The notes below the pieces were generated by a model that saw nothing but the letters and a program-made list of their open reading frames with translations, had not been told where the DNA came from and searched no databases. The translations under genes and the position numbers were made by a program. A DNA stretch of 64,000 bases, taken from the NCBI RefSeq assembly GCF_009389715.1, contig NC_052409.1, forward strand, positions 3,895,775 to 3,959,774, read 5' to 3'. This DNA is from Phoenix dactylifera. Lineage: Eukaryota > Streptophyta > Magnoliopsida > Arecales > Arecaceae. Shown one piece after another: positions 13,215 to 59,296 of the stretch; position 1 is the stretch's first letter, and each line of letters begins with the position of its first letter.

Positions 13215-16200
13215 TCATTTCACAATGCAGATCTTTATGACGGAAGCGACGCCAATGCGGTGCAGAGCAACAACAGAATCGCCCGGTTTGCACAACCTCT
13301 TCTGCATGGCGGACTTCAGTGCAGCCCCCAGGATCACCTCTGTGGACTCTGAATCAGTAGCTTTGGCAGAACCCTCCGCGAGCAGTGGGATAAGACCCCT
13401 GTGAACAAGGCTCAGCCTTGCCGGGCTCTCATCGCTGACGGTCCAATCGAATGAATCCGTTGTCAGCACCGGAACCACCACCGAGAGGATTGGAACTCGA
13501 GGTCGATACTTGGCCACGAGCTTAGCGGTGGTCCCACCACGCGTCAAGACAACAATCAACACAGCCTTGGCCTTGTTGGCTGTGCGGACAGCTGAGGATG
13601 CCAGGCTCTCCAATGGGCTCATGGGAAGAGGAGCAGACCTTATCATCTCCTTGAAGATGGCATCGTAGTCCAGGGAGGACTCTGCCTCGATACAAATCCG
13701 AGCCATGATTTTTACTGCCAGCTCAGGGTAGGCTCCAGCTGCACTTTCGCCGCTGAGCATGACACAGTCGGTGCCGTCAAGAACCGCATTGGCAACGTCG
13801 GTGGCTTCAGCACGTGTTGGACGAGGGGACTTGATCATCGATTCGAGCATTTGAGTGGCGGTGACAACAGGCTTACCCACAAGGTTGCATTTGTAAATCA
13901 TCATTTTCTGAGCAAGGAAAATCTTCTCAACTGGTATCTCCATTCCAAGATCACCACGAGCAACCATGAAGAAATCAGTCTCCCTCAAGATATCATCAAA
14001 GTTCACCACCCCCTCCTGATTTTCGACCTGCATAAACAAACATCAATAGAAGAGCATAAAGACCAACAAGTCATTAACAGAACTTGTTCGCAATATGAAA
14101 TTCTAAAGCCAAAAAGCATTTTCAGAGCTCTCACATATCATTAACCATCAGTATACAGTGTCCTCAGAAAATCAGCTGTGCAAACTACTCAAGGAGCAAG
14201 GTTCAATAGCAATTTTTTGTTAACAACATACACAATAGCCTACATACACACATGCAAAAGTCGATACATGATGTCCTAAGAAAACCAAGTATCCAAACTG
14301 TCCTAAGATTGCAATTACGTACACAATAGCCTACACACACAGACATACATGCATAAGTAGATACATGACAGATAAATAGATACACGATAGATAGATAGAT
14401 AGAGATAGAATAGATAGATACATGATAGATAAACACATAGATAGATATATGATACATAGAATACATATCATACATCGAATAGATAATTGCAATCACACAT
14501 AGAATAGATAGATACATGATACATAGAATACATACCTTTGACATTAACTTTATGCGTTTTGCATGAGGCCCAAGAACTTCTCGAACATGAACAAGATCGG
14601 ACCCCTTGCGCACAAATGACAGTGCAATCATATCAATTTTGTTGGGAACCCCCCATCCCAGGACGTCTTCTTTATCTTTCTCCGTCAATGTTGGGAGATC
14701 CACCACAATACCTGGCAGATTGACGTTCTTCCTCTCACCTAACATAGCAGTGTTCTGACAACGGCATCTCACAGTTCCAGCATCTGGGTCACATGACAGG
14801 ACAGAAAGGGTTATGGTACCATCTGCACACAATATGGTATTTCCAGGTTTCAAATCTACAGGAAGCTTCTTGTAACTCATGGAAATCATGTTATTATCGC
14901 CCTTAATGCTGTAATCAGTGCTTATTGTAATTTCTTGACCCTCCTTCAGTTGGATAGGTTTTCCATCCTTCAGGAAGCCAGTACGAATCTCTGGGCCCTG
15001 CAACAATGCTAGCAGGTAAATAACAACAAGTGCAAATGCTAGAAAGGACTCTGGTAATAAAAGTCAATATGGCTTACCCTGTCCAGCATTCAAACAAAAA
15101 GAAATCCAACAAAGACAACAATCTAAAGACATCCAACAAATAGAACAATCTAAAGTGGAATGTAAAGGGTTAGGCAGAGGAATCCACTTCAATTTTGCAC
15201 AGCCTAAGAATACTATTTCTTCAAGCATTTTTTTAATAATTCACATGAGAACCACTGTGTAGGAAAACAAACAAGAAAACACTCCAGATGCCTTCAAAAC
15301 TTGCAAAAGTGCAAATGGATAATAAAACAATTCATCAGCTCCTATGAAACTTCCTTTCTTTTCACTGCATCCTTTTCATTCCTTATATAGCCTCATCAAC
15401 CATCCATATATAGGCCAAATATGTTGTTCTGCAGGGTTATTATGTATTTTCTGGTTAGGTTCATTTCATACGCAGAAGATTTTTACACATATTCTTATAT
15501 TACCAAGTAACACTGCATCTTAGTACATCTATGCCAAGTATATGAAGATAATAGCTACAGGTTGAATCTTAGTCCTGCCCCTCTGGAATTGTGTACCCAC
15601 CACAACTAGAAACTCATTAACACTCCTTCTTAAGACTTGCTATACTCAAGATTAATTCCTCAAATGTCTTTAATAAGCAATCTTAACATATTAAAATATT
15701 CTCATGATGCAACTCAACTCTTGTAGGTAAATACATTCTAAATATCACCAATCTGAGTTCTACCATAGCTGCAACTTCTCCATCTTTGTTTCTTTCATGT
15801 CCTTGCACCTTCGTTATAAATGCACATTCTGATCAATACAGCATTGATGGCCTCACTGTATATACTCTTTTATGCCTCACCAACATACAACAAATAAATA
15901 AAATCTAAAGACGTCATCTTATTATCCAGTTCACTAAGATTCCACTACAAACATGTCCAATTGTTCCTTTTATTTTTTTCCAAATAATAGATCCTAGTTA
16001 ATAATAAAAATTAAAAAAAAAAAGTCCTATGAGGTACCAGTTGTGTTGAAATACAGTCTTTCCAATTAGGTCATGACTAGCTCCTCCAAGAAACAGGACA
16101 GCTGCTTGCAAATGTTAGAGTTGAAGAAAAACTTCCGAACATAATTAAGAGTATTTTCCTGGAGGATGGATTCCTAAAGAAAAGTACTCTTTCATTGGTT

Positions 16201-26149: not shown

Positions 26150-29100
26150 TCAGTGAGTAACAAAGAAGTCGAAGTCATGGTGATGAACACCAAGCTGCCT
26201 CAACCAGGAGGCTGCAGCACTGTGGAGGTTCCTGATCTTTTCATGGTCTAAACATGCAGGATTTGTCCAGATACTCCCCTGTACTTTGTAAGTGGCCAGT
26301 CCAAAGGAAGAAAGAGTGATGCGGTTGCTCTGTTCCTTTTGTTCAATTCCATTTCCTGCAGTACAATGTACACGTTTCTCCACATCTCCGGTCAAATTAT
26401 CTGCAAAAGTCCCACAGCGAAACAGTGCATTAAGAGGTGAGTGGCAGTATTAGAATTTTGAATGCAGGCTAGAGCCAGCAGAGAACAGCAAACAAGGAAA
26501 AATTTTGAAACTGTTAGAGGGGCAGTTACGCAACATGACATGCATAAAAGTCAACTATATAAGAAGCACTTCTATAAGTAAACAGATATGTTCAACTTTG
26601 CTTGGGGATTTGACTCCACACAGTACAGTCAAATCCATATATCACAACGATTGTTACAAAACTAGGTTTTGCTCTTTCTGTGCATAAGGATTACAAATAG
26701 TTATAGAAACAAATCATTAATACAGAAAAGACTAGATCTTAATTGCATCAGATATGCAGGTGAATTTATATATCCCAAGATTGAGAAACCTGATAAATGT
26801 TATTATATGAATGTAGAAGGACAGTGACTGAAGTTTCGAGAGTGACTTCATATCATACAAATGCTACTTCTCAGTATAAAATCCTGGAAACATGTATAGT
26901 ATGAAAATAATATGAATATTCGGCATGCGGACTAGACTGAGGGTTAATTTTCTACATAAAACAGAGATGTATTGTGCTGTGTAAAATGATATTTCCCTTA
27001 TCCATGGAGACTGCTCAAATGCGATCTATTCTGGAAATAGAAATAAAAAACCTTTTGAACTGTAAATGTGACACTGGCACCATATCCTGTCATCGCTGTT
27101 GCATTGTGAAGATAACATGCCACCTTACTGCTTAACAACTTAAAGCCCCCAATGTTATTCAACTGTTCTTGAGGGCATTGCTGTGGGAACTGGTGTCAGA
27201 CACATTATGACTCCCAAACAATACCACTATCGTTAGGACTTTCCTTAATGTGAATTCTGACTTTGTAAGAAATAATCCAACATCCCACGAATCATATATT
27301 CAAAGACTTAAATACCTTCCTTTATTCTTTTGCTACCTATAACTGCCGAATTAATACGATAACCAACAAACATAAAAGGTACTAAAGAAAGGACAGCAGT
27401 AGTCACGTTTCACAGTGCCTAGGTCCATAATATTCCTTCAGTACCAAAGCATTATACCATCTCTTTGTCATCTTTGTTCTTAACAGACAGATTAAAACAA
27501 AGAACCATGCTGTCAGGTCTCAGGAGAATACCAGACAGCCTTTATGGCAGCTTGGTTAGTGTTTGGCTTCCTATGATGAATGCATTTGATATTTAAGTAA
27601 TGTAGTTTGCAATGTGACAAATGTTAAGTTGTGGTGTCAGTCCAAAATCTACATGAAACGTCTCAGAAAGCATGATATGTGGGAAGTAACAATTGATTTG
27701 TAGAATAGATGGAGAAAGTGAATAAGTTTAAACACGAAACAGTACTGCCCCAAAGCCGTGAGTCAATACAATATATTGAAAAAAGATGTTTCAAGAACCT
27801 CTAGAAGATAAAACATATGCCACATATCAAGTCCCTTTAGAAGATAAAACAAATGCCACGTATAAAGTTGAAGCTTTTATGTATGCAATTATTCATGGCT
27901 TCAGTTGTAACAAGATATTACTTGCATATTTGAATTTGATAGAATTCATGCAAATTGTTCAAGATATCTGGACATCTCATTGAATATATCTGGTATAGCA
28001 TAAAAGAGATAATAGCAATATTTTTACACAGTTATTGATATGAAACTTCATTATCTTCAAAATTCATTTTCTTAAAAACATAAAAAGGTGATAAGTTATA
28101 CAAAAAATTCTATCAAGATATATACCTTCATAGGGAAAGATATATTAAATAATTTAAACATAAAAAATAAGAATATCAAGTATAACTCTTAATGGGGCTC
28201 CATGTCTAATATCCCCAGGGCCAACCTGCGAAGGTGGCCTTCACCCACACACATAATGTAGGTTTAGGACTGCTATTTTTCCAACTATAGCTTTCATATT
28301 TGAAAACATTTGAGGCAAAAATGCTAAAATGTGTTAGCCTCAAGGTCCAAACATTCTCCAAACCTAAAATTTCAGATCTTGTTCAAGCACCTCAATGCAA
28401 ACCCACGAGAGCATCTCCCTAAAGAAAAAAATGAGTTTGGACATGCCCTTCAAGTCTCATAATATGTGACTATGAAAATTGCAATACTATACAGTATGGC
28501 TATTTGAGCTATTCTTCAAATGAGAGCTTTATTTTGAAACTGCTTATTCTGTAGATAAGGAGATTTTAATGAATTCATTTAATATATGACATGTTTAGAT
28601 TTGATACTGTTTAGTTGGCAATACAACTCAACTCAATTAAGCCTTAATCCCAAACTATTTGAGATCAGCTACATGAATCCTTTTCCTCCATTTCACTATA
28701 TCTAGGGCTACACTTTCTGAAAGATGCAGAGATATGAAGTCCTTCCTTGCTATTTTATCCCATGTGACTTTTAGTCTACCTCTAGCCCTCTTTCCTTCTA
28801 TATGTAACAGATCACTACTCCATTCCGTATTGTTTAGTTGGCAATGAATTTACTTAATACATAACCGACTGTATGCATATGCAGACTGCGAAGTTACCCA
28901 AAGGTTTGTAGGTTGTAAGATCGGAAAGATTTCAGAATGCCTATATTATGTCTATCATAGAACAAGGGCACCTATAGATATTTAACTTTATTCTGTCACA
29001 GAGCCTACATTCGATGAACAAATGACACGGGATTGTTACAATTTGACTTTGGCTTATTACATGTGTCTTAAGGATGAATGTGATTCCTAATGTCACATGT

Positions 29101-32100
29101 TTCCTTTTTCCTCTTTCAGCAAAACTCTTGCATTCAAATACTTTGGGGCCTGGCTTCTAGGTTTCACGTTCTTATACTACAAGACCTATAAGGTAGGCTT
29201 TCCTACCTACTAATTTGGCTTTCACATATTATAGCAGGCATGTTTAGTACGCATAATTAACTCTAAATATTGTTGACATTAGGTAGAAAATGAGTCATAA
29301 ATGTCAAAAACATGATGGATCATTATTTAGTTCATGATGCCAGCCTCTTATAGATATTTAAGTTTTGTGGTGTGTTAACATATCTAACTTAAAGGGTTTC
29401 CTCGTAGCAAATCATGAATCCCTTGGACAACGGAAGGTCATCTTTTTATATTTTTGTAAAAAAAATTCAGTGGCATGGATTTTGTATAAATATCGAGCAA
29501 AATACTATTCAAAATGCTTTGAGAATTTATTTCTAAAAAAAAGATCCGTGTGAACTTGCCCACCCCCGCCCCCCATGAGTTGGGGGCTATTTCCAATTTC
29601 AACTCGGTCAAATGCATTTTTTCAAACATCTCCAAAGATAACCATCATAGTTACTTTTTCTTTTAGCTTGTCCTAACGAGCATTCAAAAATTCAAACCCA
29701 TTACATTCCATCTAGGAAGCAGCATGTGTTACCAATAAATTAGGCAAGGGGTTGACAGATAATACATATGATTCACAATTTGTTTTGCAAAAGCCAAATG
29801 TGACTAAAAAATGAAAAATGAAAATTGCCTAAGAGAGGAACAACTCATGAATAACCTGAATAAAAATATTGAATCAGCTTCCTGTTGCCCTATAGGATAG
29901 ATTGTGGGTCACAAAAAATTGGACCCATCTTAAACCGTAACTCGAACAAACACTAAGTTCTACATAATCATACACATGCAGGAAATCACGAAGAATAGAA
30001 CTTTAAAATGATGGAGAAATTTACTCCCTCCAAATCAATGGAACAGCCACAAGAACAAAAGAGTGATTGACAAAAACTAAATGAAAAAAGAGTGATATCA
30101 TGAGGTAATAAGGAAAACAAATGCACAACTTTCCATTTTCACTTGCTTCTTTCCTGCAACATGCACACGTACCTTGAAAAGCTGAGGAGATGGTATGATA
30201 AGTCAGAAAGCATGCAGACAAATCTTTGACACTTGTATGAGTTGGAATGTGATAAATAGGGTACCTGTCAAAAAAATAAACAAATAGATTAGAAATCAAC
30301 AAATTCACATGCTAAACTGACTTTCATGAAAGCAATCATTACATAATAAGAAAATAAAATCCTACATTTCTTATCAATCAAAACCCTTCTAAAAGTTCTA
30401 GAAAAACATGTGCTTAGTAATTCCCATATCTTCTAAAGGCAACAAAGTGAAATACTCCTAATACAGCTTCCATGGTATGTTATCAGTGACCATTATTTCG
30501 TTGCCATAAAAATCAGAAGGCATTTCTACCTCAGCCATGGATTTCAGAATGACTTCTGTAGCCCATCATTTTCACAATTTTTTCTAGTATCTCCAAAGTT
30601 CAAAAAGAAAGAAAAAATATGAAGAAGAATGAAGAAAATATGGGCATACCATGCAACTGACATCCAGCTAGCAGGTGATAGTTCCACACTCTTAAGGGTC
30701 ATCAAACCTGGATAACTCCGAGCCAGCTCAGTTACCTAATCAATAGTATAGTTAGAAAAAAAAATTATGCAGAAAATATATTTCAATATGTTTTTTAGAT
30801 GTAAACTTATCAAAAACAAAAGTCATGGAATTAAATCAAATAGATAATCTTGGCAAAACAATCTGTACCTTGTCCATCAGTGGCAGTCTTCTATATGGAG
30901 CATCATACTCAATATACTGAAAGCGTAGATGACCTAGGTTTTCCCTTGTTGGCCATGAAGCATCCTGGTCGAAGACTGAGTCATCTGATACAGCATCCCA
31001 TGACCTAGATAGCTTCTCACTCTCACTGTCATCGCTGAAAGAATCACTCTCACTCTCTTCCAGCACGTTCCTATAAGAAAACCAGAATGCAGCTTAGCCT
31101 AGAGTTGCCTAGAATGGGTATCATCTCAAAGGGTGCAATTCATAGGTAGGATCCGATTGGAGACCTTGAAGCCATAGGAGATTTGCTGGTGTAAATCTGG
31201 ATAGCAGACAGGTAAGGTACATAGTACTGGACTACAGTCTCGCCGTTGTCGATGACAACCGGGACACCAGCACCATAGACACTCCACTCATTATACTGAT
31301 CCCAGAGGTCTCCGAGAGTGAAGTACTCAACCGTGTCCTTGCCAACTGGATGCCAGAGGGTGTTCAGATCTCGAATGCATGTCTGCACTGATGCAATCTA
31401 AAATTACCATTGGAATTTTCTGAAATTATCAACAAAGGACTAAAAAAAATATTCATTGGGATGGGAGAAGGACAAGGATATCTCAGTTAGAAAAATGGAA
31501 CATGGATAGCAAGAAGTAATGACATAAACGATCCTTCATACATCACAAAAGAGGAAGCTATCAACTAAAGTTTCCCAAATATAATAAGCTCGAAAGGAAG
31601 TCAGGGAAAAAAATCAGCCTTTTCCCTTTTCTTTTTTCTCCAAACCGACATGAATCCAAATCTACAAATCTTTTAAGGTTTCCAAACAAGAGGGTCTTCC
31701 ATATAATTTAATTGTAGCTTACCATCTATGCCGACAAAAAGGGAAACTTTAAAGCAAGCATGACTACATGTCTACATAGCACCAAAGGATCTGAAAGTAT
31801 GCAAAAAACCAACAAAAAGGGATATCCATTTCCAAAATCCACATTCCAATCCATCTGCATATCTTTTCAAATCCATTTCATATACATAGATAGAAACACC
31901 TAAAAGATAAAGATAGAAATTTTAGTTCTACACATCATAAATACACAGAATCAATTAAAAAAAGAAAAACCGTTTGATGAAAATTAATAAAAGAAAATTT
32001 TACAGAGTGAAAGAAGCAACAAAAGATCTACAAAATCAAATCAGAAACTTGAATAAATTAAGCAACAGTGTGGCACCACTACGGATTAGAAAGAAGGAAA

Positions 32101-34440: not shown

Positions 34441-34838
34441 GAAATTAATCATTCCTAATTTCCATTGTCTCATTTCTTTGACAACTCAAACTGGCAAAAG
34501 ATTTAGCTAGAAGATAGGGTCTGAGTTATTGGATAAGGTTTGGCTTGTTGATTTTGACAATTTCTTTGAATAGTTATCTTAAAATATGGACATCCAAATT
34601 AAACTTCTACTCTAGGACTTTTCTATTAAAAGATGTTATTAAGTTAATCATGCCTAATTTTCATTATCTTATTTCTTTGACAACTCAAACTGGCAAAAGA
34701 TTTAGCTAGAAGATAGGGTCAGAGTTATTGGATAAGGTTTGGCTTGTTGTTTTTGACAATTTCTTTGAATGGTTATCTTAAAATATGGACTTCCGAATTA
34801 AACATCTACTTTTAGGACTTTTCTACAAAAAAGATGTT
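34441..34838. repeat. Tandem duplication, two units of about 200 bp
   Basis: Units 34441-34637 and 34638-34838 share long identical blocks, for example CAACTCAAACTGGCAAAAG and GGATAAGGTTTGGCTTGTTG, with scattered differences. Non-coding. Confidence 0.9.
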
Positions 34839-38143: not shown

Positions 38144-39264
38144 TGCCAATGTTAATTGTTTGATTGCCAATATTATGGAGTCTAACTTTGGATATTTTGT
38201 CTATGAATTTTCTTCTAGTTGTTATTAATGAAAGTAGACTCTTCACTAATCCAAAAATATTAAAATAAAATGATGTAGTTAACCTGTCTGTCATCTTATA
38301 TTTAACACGTACTTCATGGATGTTAATCAACCCATCAGGAATTAAAAATCTTGTTCTTGCCGGAGGTACTGCCATTATTAACGTTCAATTATTGGTTTTA
38401 ACAAATTATCCATGACCATAGTCCGGAGATGCAAGAACCTCATTGGCATTGCCATTAAGTGAATCGATATGATAACCTAAAAACACTTCAGACGTTAGTT
38501 AAGGATACAATTAATGATCAAACACTTGGGTCTCTTTAAAATAAAATAAATAAAAAACATGTCTCCATCTCTTCCAAACTTAATTGCTTGTGCTCGCCTG
38601 GTCTTTCTATAGTCTTTTTCCATTTTAGCGTGGGAACATAATGAGCTCACTGCCGCCACTACAATGACAGAAAGATAACGTTGGCCATCAAGGACAAGCC
38701 ATCATAGTCGAAGTGGAGCCACAGATCATATTATCTCTTTAAGGAGCACCAAAGTTTCCAAAAGGTCCCACTAAAGTCCTAATCCATGGAAGCATTTATA
38801 TGGGAGCACGATGATACTCCGCCACGCCAATGGATGGCAGTCAAATCAATCAAATTAAGCAGGTTGGTAGCACCCGGGAGAGGGACTAAAATATCACATT
38901 CTATCAATTTTTAAAGTTACAAGACAGTAATTGATCCAACAAGATACGGATCAGATCAGATAGATACACAATGGATCAAAAAAAATTTGATCCAAACTTT
39001 ATCTATTTATTTAATAAATTAAAATTTTAAATTTAACTTTTTTGCCAATTAGATAAATTAATTTGATCTATAATAAATTAAAATAAATTAAACGATTAAG
39101 TATTACCACCCTTATCGAATTAATAGATTCGAGTAACTAGTAAGAAAAAAAAAGATAAAAATTTGGCCAATTGAATTCATTATTGGTTCGTGGAAAATAT
39201 TTTTTCTTTTAGAAATATGATTCCTGAGAAGCAGATTCCTGGAAAAAGGATGCCTGACAAAGTA

Positions 39265-39643
39265 CTCTTAGCATGTTTGGTTGACAATGAAAAAGTGACA
39301 GATTTTCAGAGTGCTTATGTTTGGTTGACCATCCATTTTTTTAAAAAAGTTGTATGTAATTCATATTATACCCTTAATAAAAATTAGGTCTTTAATGTCT
39401 CTTTAATGCTGAACGGTTTTTTTGAGAAAAAATAAAAATGGAGTGATTCTCGGCTCATGAAAAAGTAACTTTTCTATATTTTTCATGGAAAAAACTTTCT
39501 CATGAAATGTGAGAATCATATTCCCATTGGAATATAACTTTTCCGTTTTTCTCTTTGAAAACTCCAACTAAATAAGAGGCATCTCATTACTTTTCCGTTG
39601 ACCACATTTTCCTCTCTTCTTTTTCCGCGAACCAAACGAGCCC
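39265..39643 (-). mobile_element. MITE copy 2 (same family, inverted)
   Basis: The right end CGCGAACCAAACGAGCCC is the canonical terminus; the left end (from about 39265, with GCATGTTTGGTTGAC) is decayed. Its reverse complement carries the same TTATTTAGTTGGAGTTTTCA block as copy 1. About 379 bp, non-coding. Confidence 0.75.
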
Positions 39644-40048
39644 TATAAAAATTCTATAGAAAGCTGTTCTTAGGGTAAGGTGGAACCTATTGATAGATTC
39701 TCACTTTACCTAACATCTAGAAACTATGGAACATGGTCAATGTTGGGCTAGTCTTCATACAAATCGCATTCAAACAAATTGTAGAGTTTCAAAAGGTTCG
39801 CAGGAAAATAAGATAAATCGAGGGCTTGCATGAAAAAATATGAAGCTTAACGTGTCGTGTGGTGGTGGGATCTCGCGATATGTGCGGCAACAATTAAGAC
39901 CAAATGGCGCTGCCGTGACACGAATGACACCCGAGACCTAAAATTCCAACAGCAATCAGTAAATACAGGCAGCTTCATTAAAGAAAATCTATGGAATGAA
40001 GAAAGTTTGCATTGGATTGATGGAGGACAGCTGCAGGATAAAAGAAGT

Positions 40049-40493
40049 CATGAGTGTTTCTTCTTTCTTCTACTTTTTTTTCTTCCTCGGAAAAAATTGT
40101 CTCTTCTTTACTTTAATCCATCAAAGTTGCAATATTTTGACTTGATCGTAGAGGTTCATATGATTGACTGGCCAAATTCTTCACCTCAGACACAGACAAG
40201 GTAGACATATAAGCTTAAGATTTTATGGATTCAAGACACGTCAGAAAGTAAAGGCAAAGAAGCCATGGGTAGTTCATGCACATGAATGTTTCTTCTTTCT
40301 TCTCTATTTTTTTTCCTTCCTTGGAAAAAATTGTCTCTTCTTTACTTTAATCCAACAAAGTTGCAAAATTTTGACCTGATCATAGAGGTTCATATGATTG
40401 ACTGGCCAAATTCTTCACCTTAGACACCGACAAGGTAGACATATAAGCTTAAGATTTTATGGATTCAAGAAACGTCAGAAAGTAAAGGCAAAG
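40049..40493. repeat. Direct duplication, two units of about 211 bp separated by 21 bp
   Basis: Units 40049-40259 and 40281-40493 run from CATGAGTGTTTCTTC / CATGAATGTTTCTTC to AAAGTAAAGGCAAAG and share most bases, including GTTCATATGATTGACTGGCC. Non-coding. Confidence 0.92.
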
Positions 40494-42628
40494 TGGTCAA
40501 ACACTTGGACTTTGATTTGCATGAACCCCCTTTGGTTTGGTCCTGGTCTCATTCTTCCTTATCCTAAGGATTACAAGCCAAGTCTGATATCGGCCAAGAC
40601 GGCAGCTTTTTGCGGCACACCTGATTGAGAACTTGCACCCCATCACTTGTTTTCACAAAGAGGTTAGACAATGGCATGGATCAAACACCACAGCCAACTT
40701 GTTCCACCTAAGAAGCATCAAATTTTATCCAAGAATAATGATGAGGGAAGCAAGATATGATCTCCAAAAGAAACACTGCAATAACGTCCGCATAATGCAA
40801 AGTAATGGGCTGGAATATGTAGTTTAAGCTGGTATATGGAGGAATTAATGCAAACCTAGATTCTCTCTTAAAGTTCTAGAAGGGAACAAAAAGATGGCAG
40901 GAGAGAGGTGAAGAATTAACGTTTAATTTAGGACAGGATCAAATGAACATTTAAAGCTTGGGAAAAATGGTGCCTCTCATTGATTGAAAATTGAATTTCT
41001 TCATTGCCTAACTATACTTGGGCCAATGGACATCTCTCCCTGAAAAATTTAGGCATTGACAAAGAGCTGTAAGCAAGGGCCACAAACTTGGACCTGACCT
41101 GAAGTGGTCAAACCCATAGACCTGTGGACTGGGTTGGTCTGAAAGTGAATCCATCAAAAAATTCAGATCTAAATTTTGGTCTAGCAATACTAACATTTAT
41201 AGGGGGTAATATGTAGTTGTACTTCTACTAAATTTGATCTAGTACCTGCAAGCTGATTGCCGGGACGACTACAACTTTAGCAGAACCATCTTTCCACTGA
41301 TGGTCAGAGGGCCTCCATCCTAATTCCTATGCAGTAAATTTCGCCTTTGAGCCTGTGTTTTCTTCTGAATAGATCCTTAATGAAAGCTTTCTGCTTTGTA
41401 TTCTGAGATTACTCGGTTGTGTAATTAGGGAAGTAGGAGAGTGCAGCAATTATCCAAAGAGAGATTCAATGGAAATTCTTGAGTTCAAATTGTACTAGAT
41501 TAAACTAGTCCCTGCAAGCCAAATGCCGGGACTTGTTCAAAATCGAGAGAAGCTTGACTATGTATATACACCTGAGACATATCCGTAATACTCAAAATTT
41601 CTCGGCAGTTTATGAAATCTTGCTTCTGCTAAATATGAACTAGTTCGAATTTGCATGACCCCCCACGAAGTGTTAAAATTATTGAATCTTGAAAGATTTG
41701 GCAATCGAGTTACACATGAAGGCTTTTGCTTCATAACATTACACTTCAACCTTCTCCGTTTAGAATGCAAATTTGACTTGGCCCCATTTTGTGTTTGCTT
41801 GCTACAAGTGGCTTGAGAAGATCTTTTTTTTAATAATTTCTTTCTCTCTTTTTTAAAAAAAAATCAGTATAGCCTCTGCTGACAAACTGATTAGCATTTA
41901 TCTGGTTAAGGATCTATATTTTTTGGGATATAATTAGAATTCAGTTTTCAATTAAATATGTAGTGAAATGTGTTTTTTATGTTTTGTATGATCTGGCGAT
42001 GCTGGAAGCTATAGGTTATAGAACAGCAAAGACCAACTGACAATCTGCATCATGCTTCATTTTTGACAAGATGCAAATATTCTTGCAGTTGGGGCAGCAA
42101 AACATCGAGAGAAAACGAGAAAGTAACTGGAATTGATGTGCCTATGGCAGTTTGCTGCTACAAGGTTCATCTGAAACCAGATTGCGAAGTCGTATACAGC
42201 GTAAATAAAATGGTGGATCCTCAGTTGCGCAAATGCAGCTTTCAGTGGTTAGCACAGGAGGTCACTATTAGTGATAGTGCAGCACTGTTTACAAACATGA
42301 ATTAGTGGTCCATGAAAACAATTGCAGTCATGGCTTTTTAAGAAGTATCATATGGATTATTCATGGGTCTAAATCGAAATATACAACCTTTGAAGGTTAA
42401 ATGTATTGTAGTTGATCGAACTGAACTGAGCTGAGCTGACTGAAAAACAGATCTGGTGCCCAACGTCATTCTAATTGTTTTCCTCAACAAAAGTACTTAT
42501 GGTAGCACCAATGGCCTGGCGTGCATGCTACCGACATGGCCACTTCATTCTAGCAGTTCCTCTCACCAACTGGACTCACGCATTCAAGCCTCCCATGCAT
42601 TTGGCTCTCTCTCCGGAAATTTCGTCAG

Positions 42629-42773
42629 CACTATCCATGTTCGTCAGTACTTATTAGAGATGATCCCTATAGCTCACACTATCCATGTTCGTCAGCATGC
42701 CACTTTCATTTCCTGAAATTTGTTGCAGCATGCCATAGTATCATCTCTAATAGCCAACTTCATCCCTATATAA
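42629..42773 (+). promoter_or_regulatory. Promoter of the cysteine-rich peptide gene: direct repeat, inverted repeat and TATA box
   Basis: CACTATCCATGTTCGTCAG occurs at 42629-42647 and again, identically, at 42677-42695. TATTAGAGATGAT (42652-42664) is perfectly inverted as ATCATCTCTAATA (42740-42752). A good TATA box, TATATAA, lies at 42767-42773, 85 bp before the start codon. Repeat pairs this close to the TATA could be transcription-factor sites; that is inference. Confidence 0.6.
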
Positions 42774-42857
42774 TCTGACAGCCAACGATCCAATATTGGC
42801 GTCAGTCACAGCAAAAAGAAAGAAAACCAGAAGAAAGAAGCAAGCAGAAGACAAGCC

Positions 42858-43208
42858 ATGAAGAGCTCTTGCTTAATGATCATGGTTCTTCTTGCCATTG
42901 CCGTCGTCGATGCTTCCCCAGAGACGACGGTGCATGAGGCCTCAAGCAGGGAACCTGTGCCGGTCAGTCTGAGCAACAGGTTAAGTGGGCTGTTCGCAAG
43001 GCGCGGTGGCTTGTGGACTTCAGCCGGCAGAAAGGTGGCGGGAGGTGAGAATAGTGTGCCTTCGGATGAGATGAGGACTGGGGAGATAACCCAAGAAAGT
43101 AATCAGATTTTGAACGCCTGCATGACCAAGGAAGCATGCCAGAAGAAGGCGGCAGTTTGCTCCAAGAAATGCAGCAGCTGCAAGAAAGCACGAGAAATGC
43201 ACTGCTAA
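42858..43208 (+). CDS. Secreted cysteine-rich peptide precursor, unassigned family
   Basis: Single-exon gene for a 116-residue precursor. The N-terminus has a classic signal peptide: a short basic start, the hydrophobic run LMIMVLLAIAVV, and a likely cut after VVDA (about residue 19). A Ser/Arg/Gly-rich middle with RLSGLFARRG (41-50) follows, which could hold a processing site. The C-terminal 29 residues contain six cysteines, C88, C94, C101, C105, C108 and C116 (spacing 5, 6, 3, 2, 7), among many lysines, enough for three disulfides. This layout fits apoplastic signalling or antimicrobial cysteine-rich peptides, but the spacing matches no family I can name (not a defensin, GASA, RALF or lipid-transfer pattern). 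A TATA box 85 bp upstream and an AATAAA signal at 43319-43324 (111 bp after the stop) support a real transcription unit. Confidence 0.75.
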   Translation: MKSSCLMIMVLLAIAVVDASPETTVHEASSREPVPVSLSNRLSGLFARRGGLWTSAGRKVAGGENSVPSDEMRTGEITQESNQILNACMTKEACQKKAAVCSKKCSSCKKAREMHC

Positions 43209-43318
43209 ACGAAGAAGTTTGGAGTTGTAGTCTTTAGCTTATTGTCACTTTCTAGTTCTTATGTGACTTGCTCTTGTTTTCTTCCAGATTTCCTGGACTT
43301 TCTGTAGTTCACTGCAAC

Positions 43319-43324
43319 AATAAA
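43319..43324 (+). terminator. Polyadenylation signal of the peptide gene
   Basis: Perfect AATAAA hexamer 111 bp after the stop codon, in a T-rich context. Confidence 0.55.
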
Positions 43325-45467
43325 GGCAGTTCCTGTTAGGGTTTTTGTTTTGTGGAACTTTATGGTATCTCTGAAAAACGAATACGGTTGGCTTCCTTTT
43401 TTTTTCTGGGTACATAATATGCTTCCTATCCTTTTTTTTTTTTTGGTTTCTTTGAAGAACCTAATAAGTGCTGATCTGAGTTGAGCCATTGGTGGAATTT
43501 GGTTCTCTTTGCTTAATGGTGGTGAATCTCATTTTTACTGTGTTTGTCATTATTTTGATATCTTAATCATTATATATCAGCCATGGTCTTGGAATATTTT
43601 TGGTCTTTTATAACTTTCCCCACCTTTCCCCGGCGGTTATAAACCAAGATAAACATTTTATCTTAGCATCGATCACCCACAAAGATTACCGAGATATCAT
43701 CAAATCTTGAGTAGGATTTATATTGTTCTGCATGTGAGCTTTGTCTTTTCCCCTTTCTTCTGACATGTTACATGCCATCTGTTATGCCTTTTTTTTCTAC
43801 AAAGAGTCGAACGTAGTAACATTTTTTTCCGAACCATTGAAAGGTTTGCAAATTATTCCTGAAATTTTTGGAGTGACTCGATTCAATATTGAACAGTCTA
43901 GATTTATAATTAATTAAATAGCAAATGAGCTGCCATTTTGTTCATTCTTGTTGCCTACTTGTCTTCTCATCCTTTTTTGCTACATAAACCAGTTCATGGC
44001 AAGATAAAAAACATCCTTAAGCTTTTTTTACTTTCGTCAAATTTGATTTTTTCTTTTTTAGCTTTTACCAAATATTTGGTGAACTTTTCCTCGCATCAAA
44101 TTATCCTGAAATTCTTATGGCATCTTTTGCCCACTGCAACAACCTTGACAACAACCCATCCTAGGGCACCTTGTTAAGAAAGAGTTAATCAAATGTATTA
44201 AATGACACCTTATAGCATTTTAGTACACCCTGGCAATGTAATTAAAATAAATAATTGTATCTAAGTAATGACTTTATTTTATATATTGTCGTTTAGCATT
44301 TTGCATAAATATTTTCTGTTTTAGAATTGCTAAAGTATATCTGTAATATCAGTATGTAGATAAATTGTTACCTTCTTTTGATTAAAAATATCCAAAGAAT
44401 TGTTATTTCACTATTATTTGCAGCCAAAAAAGTTATTGAGAAACAAGTTATTGTCATCTTTAGAACATTTAATAGACTAATCGTCCATTAAAATGTCATA
44501 ACAGCCAATGCTGTCACATAGCCATAACAACATTATATATTTAAAATGGATCTGATACACACCGCAAGCCGGTTTTAATCGTAACCAAATCACAAGCGCA
44601 AGCTGATTAACAATGCACCAGGGCAGACCACAGAACTGAAACCTGCTATCGGAATTCAATGCTGCTCTCCAAAATAAGCAGTAAGTATTAGCCTGCTTCC
44701 CCCGACCTAATATCCATCTCCCCTCAGCACTGCCTGGCTCTAACAGAATCCACAGATTGGTGGTTCAAATCTAAGCCATAATCTCCTCTACAGAAGTTTT
44801 CCAATGGGCTGCTGGCTGTATAGGTGAACGTTTATGACATCATAGAGCTCAAAGATGCAGTGTTGGAAGTGCAGGAACTTCATCATATGTCATTTGAGTC
44901 AGAGAGCAGGGACCTTTTCAAAGTTAAGGCATAGATTCAAACAATACAAAAGCCCTAAAATGATATTTCCTTGACATACGTAACTTTTAGGATATGAAAT
45001 GATGTGAATCATCCAGGGGCAAGATGATGAAAATTTAATGATTTGTTTGCCCTCTTCCTTGAAATGCCAGTCAAAATATCAACAACAGAACATTAGCAGT
45101 ATTACTATACAACCAGATAAAACAGATGCTTTAGTGGGAGAGAAGTAATAAAGAATTACATCTGTGAGTATTCTTGCTTTCTTGGGCTTTGGCTTTCATA
45201 TTAACACTTCATAGAATCAGCAATCCAATGTGGAATGTACAACCAAGATCACCGAAACATACAGCAGGATATCTTTTGTGAGAATCTCCTGTTTTGCAGA
45301 AAATCAGGAGTGAACTTGAGATAAATGGTTAGAAATAAATAAATCAAGATGTGTTTTAAGAATTTACCAGCAAACCACCACACAGTAGGTTGTCAATGGA
45401 ACAAAAAAAAAATGGGAATGCTTTCCCTTCGAGATATGAATAATTTAGGTGACAAAGTTTCTTCATA
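43325..45467. other. Intergenic region between two convergent genes
   Basis: AT-rich with poly(T) tracts. The peptide gene (+) and DUF707 gene (-) point toward each other here, so it should hold both 3' ends. No further gene seen. Confidence 0.5.
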
Positions 45468-56410: not shown

Positions 56411-56802
56411 GGCCGGTGGCGGCGGTGGAGCTAGGGTTCCTGCAAAGGCCGGGGCTCGCTTCCCGCGACAGCGGAGATCGAGAGGAGAGAGAGAGAGAGG
56501 AGAAAGGTAGAGACCCCCTCCTCGGTTTCGAGCGGAGAGAACAAAAAAAAAAAAAAAAAAAGCGAACCGCGCGCGATATACGTGGGAGAAAGGGTTACCA
56601 TGCGGGATCCGCTGAATTGTCCCGTGGAAGACCCCACGGACGCAATTGAATATGGGAACGACACGTGGACTCGCGCCAAATCCCACTAACGGTCGCTTTC
56701 GCCAGCTGCCGGTTCACCGGCATCGATGTGGCGTGAAACAACGAGCCCGGCTTGAACCTCGCTTTTATGCAGGCCATATCTGTGCGGACAAAGCAGCGGT
56801 TT
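56411..56802 (-). promoter_or_regulatory. Leader and proximal promoter of DUF707
   Basis: Contains a GA-rich tract (about 56475-56505), an A-run (56540-56558) and a CACGTGG box near 56662 (ACACGTGGACTC). The region is cut off from the more distal promoter (59309 onward) by the LINE insertion. Confidence 0.5.
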
Positions 56803-56835
<33 letters not shown>

Positions 56836-59296
56836 CGGGGAGGCGTTGTTTGATGGCTGTGAAACTGGATATGGAGCGTGCTTACGACCGGATTCGTTGG
56901 GACTTCCTCAGGTGTGCTTTGGAGAGCTTTGGTTTCCATCAGATCTGGATTGACTGGGTCCTGGGCTGTGTGCAAGGGCCTAGTTTCTCCATCTTGGTCA
57001 ATGGTACGCCATCTCCCTTCTTCAGAGCTACTATGGGGCTTCGCCAGGGATGTCCTCTTTCCCCATACTTATTCATTATTTGCTCTGATGTTCTCTCTCG
57101 TTGGCTACATGCTGCTTGTGAGGACCAGGGGCTGGCCGCCTATAGTCCAGCCCCTGGCGCCCGGCCCATTTCTCATTTGTTGTTTGCAGACGATTGCCTT
57201 CTGCTTGCTAGGGCGAGACCTAGTGAGGCCTGCACCTTCCAGAGAGTGCTGTCGGAGTACTGTGAGGCGTCGGGCCAGAGGATTAATCTCCAAAAGTCAG
57301 CCATATTCTTCAGTCCGAGCACGGAGCGGAGGGTGCGACGGGAGATCAGGGTGATTTTGGGGATGCAGGAGCAGGAGGGGGCACTAGATTACCTGGGAGT
57401 TCCCATTACTGGGAGGAGGTTGCGGGTGGCGGAGTGTTCCACACTGGTGCAGAGAGTACAGAGTAGGCTTGAGGGTTGGAGGGCCTCATCCCTCTCTATG
57501 ATGGGCAGGCTGACGCTGGTCAGGTCAGTGCTATGCTCCATGCCGGTTTACATTATGGCCCATACAGTTGTGCCGAAGACAGTGCTGGTAGGGATTGAGC
57601 GGCTGATGCGGAGCTTCCTGTGGGGCTCTTTGGGGAGGGGCCATGGAGTTCATCTAGTGGCCTGGGAGAGAGTCTGCACGCCTTTGAGTGAGGGTGGCCT
57701 AGGGGTACAGTCTCTCCTGGCTAGGCGTGAGGCACTCTTGGCGAGGCGTGCTGTGCAGCTTGTTCTGGAGCCACATGGACTATGGAGTCAGGTCATGTCA
57801 GCGAGATATGGTCCAGCAGGCTTAGTGGGCCAGGTGAGGGGTAGCCGGAGGAGTTCCTTTATGTGGCGGGAGATTGGGAGGTATCTGCCTATGGCTCAGG
57901 CACACTCCAGGTGGTTGACTGGCGATGGCAGGTCCATTGATGTTATGGAGGACCCATGGGTGGATGCTCTCCCGCTGAGCTTGTGGCCGACGATGATTGG
58001 AGTTGAGTTAGCTGTGGGACTCCGGGTATGTGACCTCCTCGTGCCAGGCGAGAGGGAGTGGGATGAGGACAGACTGGGTCAGTTATTTGGGGAGCACCTA
58101 GTGGAGCGCGTTCGGGCTCTTCCCATCCCGGGGTCAGCTGGTCCGGATGTCAGGGTCTGGAGTACCACTTGTAGGACCAGAGTCAGTGTTGGTGATGTTT
58201 CTCGGGTTCTTCAGCAGGAGTCTGAGCTGAGTAGGGACTGTGGTTGGGTATGGAGGTTTGGCCTACACCAGAGGGTGGCACTGTTCCTCTGGAAGGTGGC
58301 CTGGGATCGCCTGCCGACTAGTTCAGAGTTGAGTCGACGGGGGGTCGGCATTTCCCCCTTGTGCACGCTCTGCGAGGTGGACGAGTCAGTGGATCATGTA
58401 CTCTTCCAGTGTGGCTGGGCGAGGAGGACTTGGAGGCTGTCTGGGTTCTCGGAGGGTGTCTGGAGCCGGAGGGACGGCTTCCTGGAGGAGGTTCGGGGCT
58501 GGTCTAGATCCCCACCGATGCGATGTTTGGCCGTTAGAGCGGCATGTACAGCTTACCATATTTGGTTGGCCAGAAATGGCCGTATTTTTGGTGATATCAG
58601 TCTGTCCCCGTGGTTTGTGATGGAGCGGGCTCGGGCGCAGGCAGCGGAGTTCCTCCATGTTGACTCAGACCTTGGACCTATGATAGCTCGGGACATCTGG
58701 GGCCCCCACTCTACTTCGGCAGCTCCTCATGTGGTGTTTTTCACCTGGGAGCCCCCACCCCCGAGCTTCCTCAAGGTCAATTTTGATGCCTCAGTCCAGG
58801 ATGGCGGCAGGAGGGGAGGTGCTGGGTTTGTCATCAGGGGCCCGGATTCCCGCTTGGTGGCAGCAGGAGGCTGTCAGATCTTCGACATCTCAGTTTCAGG
58901 GGCAGAGCTGCGGGCAGCTTGGATGGGGTTGCGATATGCGCGATCCGTTTTGCGGGCGAGCTCCATCATCCTGGAGGGAGACTCGGCCACTGTGATCAGT
59001 TGGGTCCGGAAGGGCCCGTATAGCGATAGGGCAGTTCACCCACTGCTCCGGGATATATGGTTGATGGTGAGGGGGGGGTGCTCTTTCGAGCAGGGCATGT
59101 ATATCGGGAGGCCAATGGTGCGGCAGACTGGGTGGCGGCGTTTGTTGCGTGCCACTCAGGCGGCTCACTATGGGTCGGTGAGGGTGATTTACCTGGTGCT
59201 ATCCGGGAGATTTTGTATGCTGACTCTTCTAGGTGCATTCGTACCCGAATAATATGAATCATCGGTTTTAGCAAAAAAAAAAAAAAAAAAAAAAAA
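56803..59296 (+). mobile_element. Young 5'-truncated L1-like LINE with RT, zf-RVT and RNase H domains
   Basis: Nearly intact 3' two-thirds of an L1-type ORF2 (56853 to the stop at 59257). The protein starts inside the reverse transcriptase: KLDMERAYDRIRW, GLRQGCPLSPYLF, then the catalytic LLFADDCLL (near 57185). It continues through a zf-RVT domain (WRFGLHQRVALFLWKVAWD, then CTLCEVDESVDHVLFQC, about 58250-58410) and an RNase H domain (VNFDASVQDGG to HVYREANGAADWVAAF, about 58770-59150). The endonuclease and first RT motifs are missing. One frameshift, at the G-run near 59070, throws the last 60 codons out of frame. A 26-base poly(A) ends the element and a twelve-base target-site duplication, AAGCAGCGGTTT, flanks it (56791-56802 and 59297-59308). 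Confidence 0.95.
56805..56834 (+). repeat. 30-base G homopolymer at the LINE 5' junction
   Basis: Thirty consecutive G immediately after the 5' target-site duplication and two T, before the first recognisable LINE sequence. It is not part of the empty target site (which continues GGGATCC at the 3' side). Confidence 0.95.

Follow-up and report, generated by a model that had tools for sequence, protein, structure and literature searches.

A putative secreted peptide gene of the date palm reads as a truncated duplicate within a small eight-cysteine family

A cysteine-rich open-reading frame in the window

Profile searches can miss secreted peptides that are rich in cysteine, and a short open-reading frame in a 64 kb stretch of the date palm genome (hereafter the window; C18:3895775-3959774 of a 773 Mb genome assembly) raises the question of whether it encodes such a peptide of a new kind. 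A first-pass annotation had described it as a secreted six-cysteine peptide gene of no assignable family. Our preferred explanation, to which we give a probability of roughly 65%, is that the frame belongs to a family of secreted, cationic and perhaps helical-hairpin peptides, of which the copy in the window (the C18 copy) is a truncated member, possibly under relaxed constraint. The features of the gene are listed below by position in the window, C17 and C52 being the two paralogues described in the following section.

42767..42772, plus strand: TATA box, at -91 from the ATG in the window copy, -89/-87 in C17 and -89 in C52
42858..43208, plus strand: open-reading frame of 116 aa, read as intronless, stop included
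42858..42914, plus strand: signal-like segment, residues 1-19, at a hydropathy peak and aligned in the C17 and C52 paralogues
42966..43046, plus strand: pro-region block, residues 37-63, with an R-x-GG-[LI]-W-x-S core, common to C52 and absent in frame from C17
43113..43172, plus strand: opening half of the cysteine domain with its first four cysteines, spaced 5-6-3 in three of three members
43173..43208, plus strand: out-of-frame tail carrying the fifth and sixth cysteines and the stop codon, an other-frame reading according to the DNA alignment
43319..43324, plus strand: AATAAA poly(A) signal, in a stretch also present in C17

The coordinates, strand, six C-terminal cysteines and their 5-6-3-2-7 spacing were all as first described, the domain cysteines being residues 88, 94, 101, 105, 108 and 116, with one additional cysteine inside the signal-like segment. 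A genome search with the protein finds the frame itself at G000:C18:3938632-3938979. The signal peptide proposed earlier is made plausible by hydropathy, as residues 4-18 contain the five most hydrophobic 11-residue windows, and by a V-x-A ahead of a plausible cleavage after A19, which was judged by eye. The Lys-rich C-terminus also stands (8 K/R vs. 2 D/E in the last 31 residues), as do the TATA box at 42767 and the AATAAA at 43319, the sole one within 43209-43700; the TATA box lies 87-91 nt ahead of the ATG in all three family members.

Of the 124 ATG-initiated open-reading frames of 50-200 residues in the window, this is the only one to combine a hydrophobic start with at least six cysteines in 31 residues. 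In 100 order-3 Markov sequences of 64 kb each, the mean number of such frames was 0.02, which agrees with the earlier view of a plausible secreted cysteine-rich peptide gene. Length alone is a weaker argument than this combination, with 12 ATG-initiated frames of at least 116 residues in the window against 2.4 expected. The codon score of the frame was reached by 16 of 7272 frame-windows and by one of the 93 stop-free ones, the score having been derived from 426 codons of a different gene in the window (13.2-15.1 kb), which by eye we take to be a pyruvate kinase gene (13215-15063, exons on the minus strand). GC at third codon positions was 0.62, compared with 0.35-0.42 GC in the flanks. By its looks, the frame at 42858-43208 resembles a genuine secreted-peptide gene.

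Relatives in the same genome and in family libraries

Querying the genome with each of the three proteins led to the same three places, the window gene on C18, C17:14070167 and C52:753251, among the best first-look candidates, which were the ones scored. A tblastn search inside the window gave no convincing further paralogue, the next best match being at E 2.3. Both paralogues keep an open frame, a check that the first-pass annotation had set, and their domains hold eight cysteines, spaced 5-6-3-10-3-2-3 in C17 and 5-6-3-16-3-2-3 in C52, giving the common pattern C-x5-C-x6-C-x3-C-x(10/16)-C-x3-C-x2-C-x3-C. A chance frame that is no gene is extremely improbable here: a frame of 116 residues is by itself not rare, but the signal together with the cysteine domain is, and the paralogues, both of which share its frame, its TATA spacing and its first four cysteines, appear already to have refuted such a reading in the main. 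The putative precursor would comprise a signal peptide, a charged pro-region and a cationic C-terminal cysteine domain.

In Pfam and NCBIfam the window protein matched no family, in line with the earlier statement that none could be assigned, and a Pfam search up to E 10 with the whole window protein and with two of its segments, in which the HMMER filters drop most weak matches, likewise returned none. The paralogues' Pfam matches all fell below cut-off (Toxin_27/calcine, 16 and 18.4 of 25 bits; Gastrin, 13.1 of 22.2; DUF1103, 9.3 of 25.2) and look like reflections of composition. The likeness to the scorpion calcine profile, of an animal family, is confined to the C52 copy, where a C-terminal piece scores the 18.4 bits, and Lys/Cys composition is its likely cause. 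A PDB sequence search gave one match for the window protein (E 1.3) and none for its C-terminal 31 residues, whilst the three matches of a three-member profile (best E 0.27, ribosomal L28) and the six of the C17 domain alone (best E 0.25) were not convincing. Rfam gave no match, a literature search for the motif or cysteine-spacing strings found no paper, and of the stretches that fit a pattern in viral contigs (21) and in bacterial or archaeal contigs (150), none was a confirmed relative. A ShKT-like ending (CX3CX2C), weighed by eye, was rejected on account of its different order of cysteines and the absence of a profile match.

It is very unlikely that the family is an already known plant one (thionin, defensin, GASA/snakin, hevein, LTP, EPF or RALF) diverged beyond recognition. 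The snakin/GASA peptides, as described in PMC7711543, do share with it a signal, a variable middle region, a basic C-terminal cysteine domain and a CX3CX2C element of their motif, but they have 12 domain cysteines, not 8 (6 in the window copy), and none of the three members has the CC pair, GNX3CPC or KCP ending. The window protein has no Pfam match, GASA included, the sub-threshold matches of the paralogues are to unrelated families, and the Pfam profiles of thionin, defensin, hevein, LTP, EPF and RALF, taken as a group, matched neither the window protein nor the paralogues. On present sequence comparisons, the C17, C52 and window copies are thus best described as a small palm peptide family matching no known one in the libraries searched, and so without a name there, defined by three genes and the eight-cysteine pattern.

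Truncation after the fourth cysteine

Past the fourth cysteine, the DNA alignment leaves the window copy a net 5 nt short of C17 (a 5-nt gap is also found pairwise), after which the bases are still alignable until 43 nt of C17, holding its last two cysteines and stop codon, are absent from the window copy. The sixth cysteine codon of C17 is aligned with CGA in the window copy, and the neighbouring frame of the window DNA reads AAARKHEKCTAKRRS, matching PAKDHEKCIAKCNK in C17. As C17 and C52 are in frame with each other, parsimony places the change in the window copy, the last 11 residues of which come from out-of-frame DNA. On this alignment, the frame shift accounts for the stop codon of the window copy as well as for its cysteines 5 and 6, and because these two stem from an out-of-frame reading, 5-6-3-2-7 is no family signature. 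The earlier suggestion of a six-cysteine family pattern accordingly falls, with neither of the two paralogues, both with eight domain cysteines, following it. The window copy is very probably a truncated duplicate, which kept the first four cysteines and was then frame-shifted and cut short, and as a truncated member it may have lost the role of its relatives and no longer do what they do. One broken old cysteine pattern can look like a new one, a warning against defining a family by how the cysteines of one copy are spaced.

A duplicated block on two chromosomal sequences

The genes on either side of the frame in the window are:

26162..31352, minus strand: DUF789 gene, low-side neighbour; profile-matched exons, extent approximate, collinear on C17
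47400..49984, minus strand: DUF707 gene, high-side neighbour; profile-matched exons, extent approximate, DNA collinear on C17

Among matches of at least 70 bp, 32 of the 35 listed for C17 follow one order and strand over 24.9-63.0 kb of the window (the figures cover 41 of the 43 matches to C17 and C52). This collinear stretch runs from the DUF789 gene, across the window gene, to beyond the DUF707 gene; within the C17 stretch compared, no collinear match was found for the first 24.9 kb of the window. Synonymous divergence between the C18 and C17 copies was 0.26, and for the palm/date-palm genome duplication PMC10787024 gives a dS peak of ~0.32 and an age of ~75 million years. Both marks of the palm whole-genome duplication, a collinear block and a dS near the peak, were found in this pair, and the comparison of sequences shows the window and C17 copies to be sisters in one duplicated block. 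The C52 copy, at a dS of 1.1-1.2 from the other two members, is by this measure older than the C18-C17 split. A DUF789 gene lies ~210 kb from the C52 copy on the same strand as the others, and the link of C52 to the block, made through this gene only, is weak.

The block also holds intergenic repeats. Tandem two-copy duplications of ~199 and ~234 bp occur at 34445-34838 and 40049-40493, and since both copies of the latter match one C17 place, its second copy probably arose after the block duplication. The piece at 39183-39648 is probably a dispersed repeat, as its 78-80% matches, to the minus strand of C17 and to C52 at 780 kb, fall outside the collinear order. The long open frame at 56652-59252, which by eye we take to be the reverse transcriptase of a non-LTR retrotransposon, ending in an RNase H-like part, is related to DNA that immediately precedes the C52 paralogue (C52:749.6-752.0 kb).

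Selective constraint on the three copies

A Ka/Ks below 1 among relatives, a check also proposed in the first-pass annotation, held over the bootstrap range for two of the three pairs, with whole-length dN/dS of 0.47 (bootstrap 0.24-0.80) for C18-C52 and 0.40 (0.19-0.78) for C17-C52, but the range for the closest pair, C18-C17, spans 1 (0.61, 0.31-1.55). These are simple Nei-Gojobori counts over 49-66 synonymous sites; of the 2000 bootstraps for each whole-length pair, 0, 9 and 75 could not be used. Over the first-four-cysteine stretch the values were 0.25 (0.07-0.93) for C18-C17, 0.60 (0.16-2.50) for C18-C52 and 0.31 (0.11-1.37) for C17-C52. Up to the fourth cysteine the copies differ by in-frame gaps only, an intact frame being reached in 0.0069 of neutral simulations, the rates of which were estimated solely on intergenic blocks that BLAST could align (146 gaps over 4979 aligned bases). 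The coding region shares 201/237 bases (85%) between C18 and C17, compared with 148/194 just upstream and 153/198 just downstream, and is slightly above the 82% of the intergenic BLAST-alignable blocks as a whole.

The window gene may thus have been kept for much of its history, with constraint perhaps relaxed on the window branch. It is quite possible, though not what we favour, that the window copy is on its way to becoming a pseudogene, having lost constraint and half of its domain, with its frame open by chance. The domain is cut by a deletion and a frame shift, the C18-C17 dN/dS range includes 1, the coding identity to C17 is close to that of the intergenic blocks, and substitutions unique to the window copy number 12 nonsynonymous and 2 synonymous (7 and 3 in C17, small counts throughout), which on ~187 nonsynonymous and 50 synonymous sites points to a window branch free of purifying constraint. 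Against this are the frame intact to the fourth cysteine at a frequency so rare under full neutrality, the retained TATA box and poly(A) signal, and the low C18-C17 dN/dS over the first-four-cysteine stretch, where counts are again small. The reading overlaps with the drifting branch of our preferred explanation, in which the window copy, being without a second CxxxC arm, is either an altered peptide or drifting.

Complementary losses in the precursor

The C17 copy has lost a pro-region block of ~25 residues in frame, whilst C52 has both the block, in which 10 of 25 aligned residues are identical to C18, and the eight-cysteine domain. Going by the alignments, the part of the precursor that is missing differs between the two duplicates, and the pair is therefore a compact test case for the dividing of precursor parts after genome duplication. 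A more ambitious reading is that after the palm duplication a two-part precursor was split by complementary loss, C17 keeping the eight-cysteine domain and the window copy keeping the RGG-W block and losing half of the cysteine domain; drawn from three sequences, this is unlikely. If both parts were bioactive, the precursor of a hormone or defence peptide would have been subfunctionalised at the level of the protein, and the RGG-W block might be a second, undescribed signal peptide.

We think it similarly improbable that the truncated six-cysteine form with its RGG-W block is itself the selected product, a neofunctionalised signalling peptide. The sharing of the pro-region block with the older C52 copy, the retained open frame and promoter, and a cluster of CGTCA cores upstream of the window copy only (five, vs. 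none and none in the 500 bp upstream of each paralogue) would fit such a product, but the last 11 residues are out-of-frame DNA and the cluster was noticed post hoc and is in part one duplicated stretch. The explanation that we prefer, a truncated copy possibly under relaxed constraint, would leave the standard function of the family to the C17 and C52 copies.

Likeness to alpha-hairpinins and putative function

Table 1 of PMC11591084 gives CX3CX4-20CX3C as the 4C inclusion motif of the alpha-hairpinins, antimicrobial peptides of plants with 4C and 6C forms, and both paralogues contain this core (CX3C-X10-CX3C in C17, CX3C-X16-CX3C in C52), whilst the window copy, with one CX3C only, does not. 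Further points of likeness to the peptides described in PMC11591084 and PMC7191063 are a secreted basic precursor and the helices in a model of the window domain. The isolated domain (40 residues) was modelled mainly as helix, with a best pLDDT of 84.6 (54.5-84.6 across five models), in a single-sequence model of what is a truncated domain; the model of the full-length window protein was poor (57.1), and a Foldseek search with the domain model returned no PDB match. Unlike alpha-hairpinins, C17 and C52 carry two further cysteines before and two after the core, with no sequence match to those peptides, and the single module of the family forms the extreme C-terminus, with neither the modular cassette nor the vicilin domain that PMC11591084 and PMC7191063 describe. 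An exclusion rule in PMC11591084, the printed wording of which allows two readings, concerns at least three extra cysteines before or after the core and may apply to C17 and C52, where four cysteines lie outside the loose 4C motif; a CC pair is excluded too, and neither C17 nor C52 has one. Two eight-cysteine candidates reported in that study are of another spacing. Among unclassified plant antimicrobial peptides, the ToAMPs and Pp-AMPs are likewise basic and outside the main families (PMC4695807, section 2.8), but they carry a -CC- motif, and the 5-6-3-n-3-2-3 spacing does not appear in that section.

By analogy with the alpha-hairpinins, in which Cys1-Cys4 and Cys2-Cys3 bonds hold a helix-loop-helix, the eight-cysteine domain would form two helices and a loop, held by paired CxxxC cross-links and extra disulphides, and the product would serve in defence or as an inhibitor in the extracellular space. 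An assignment of the family to the hairpin-like defence peptides is our best guess, though less likely than not.

Sequence elements upstream of the gene

The five CGTCA cores lie at 42464-42804, upstream of the frame, and form the densest 400-bp cluster in the window, two of them sitting in the two copies of one duplicated stretch. As the cluster has no counterpart upstream of C17 and C52, we did not use it as evidence of defence regulation, and that reading of the promoter was dropped. RY elements occur in 2, 1 and 2 copies upstream of the three members, compared with 0.54 per 500 bp in the window.
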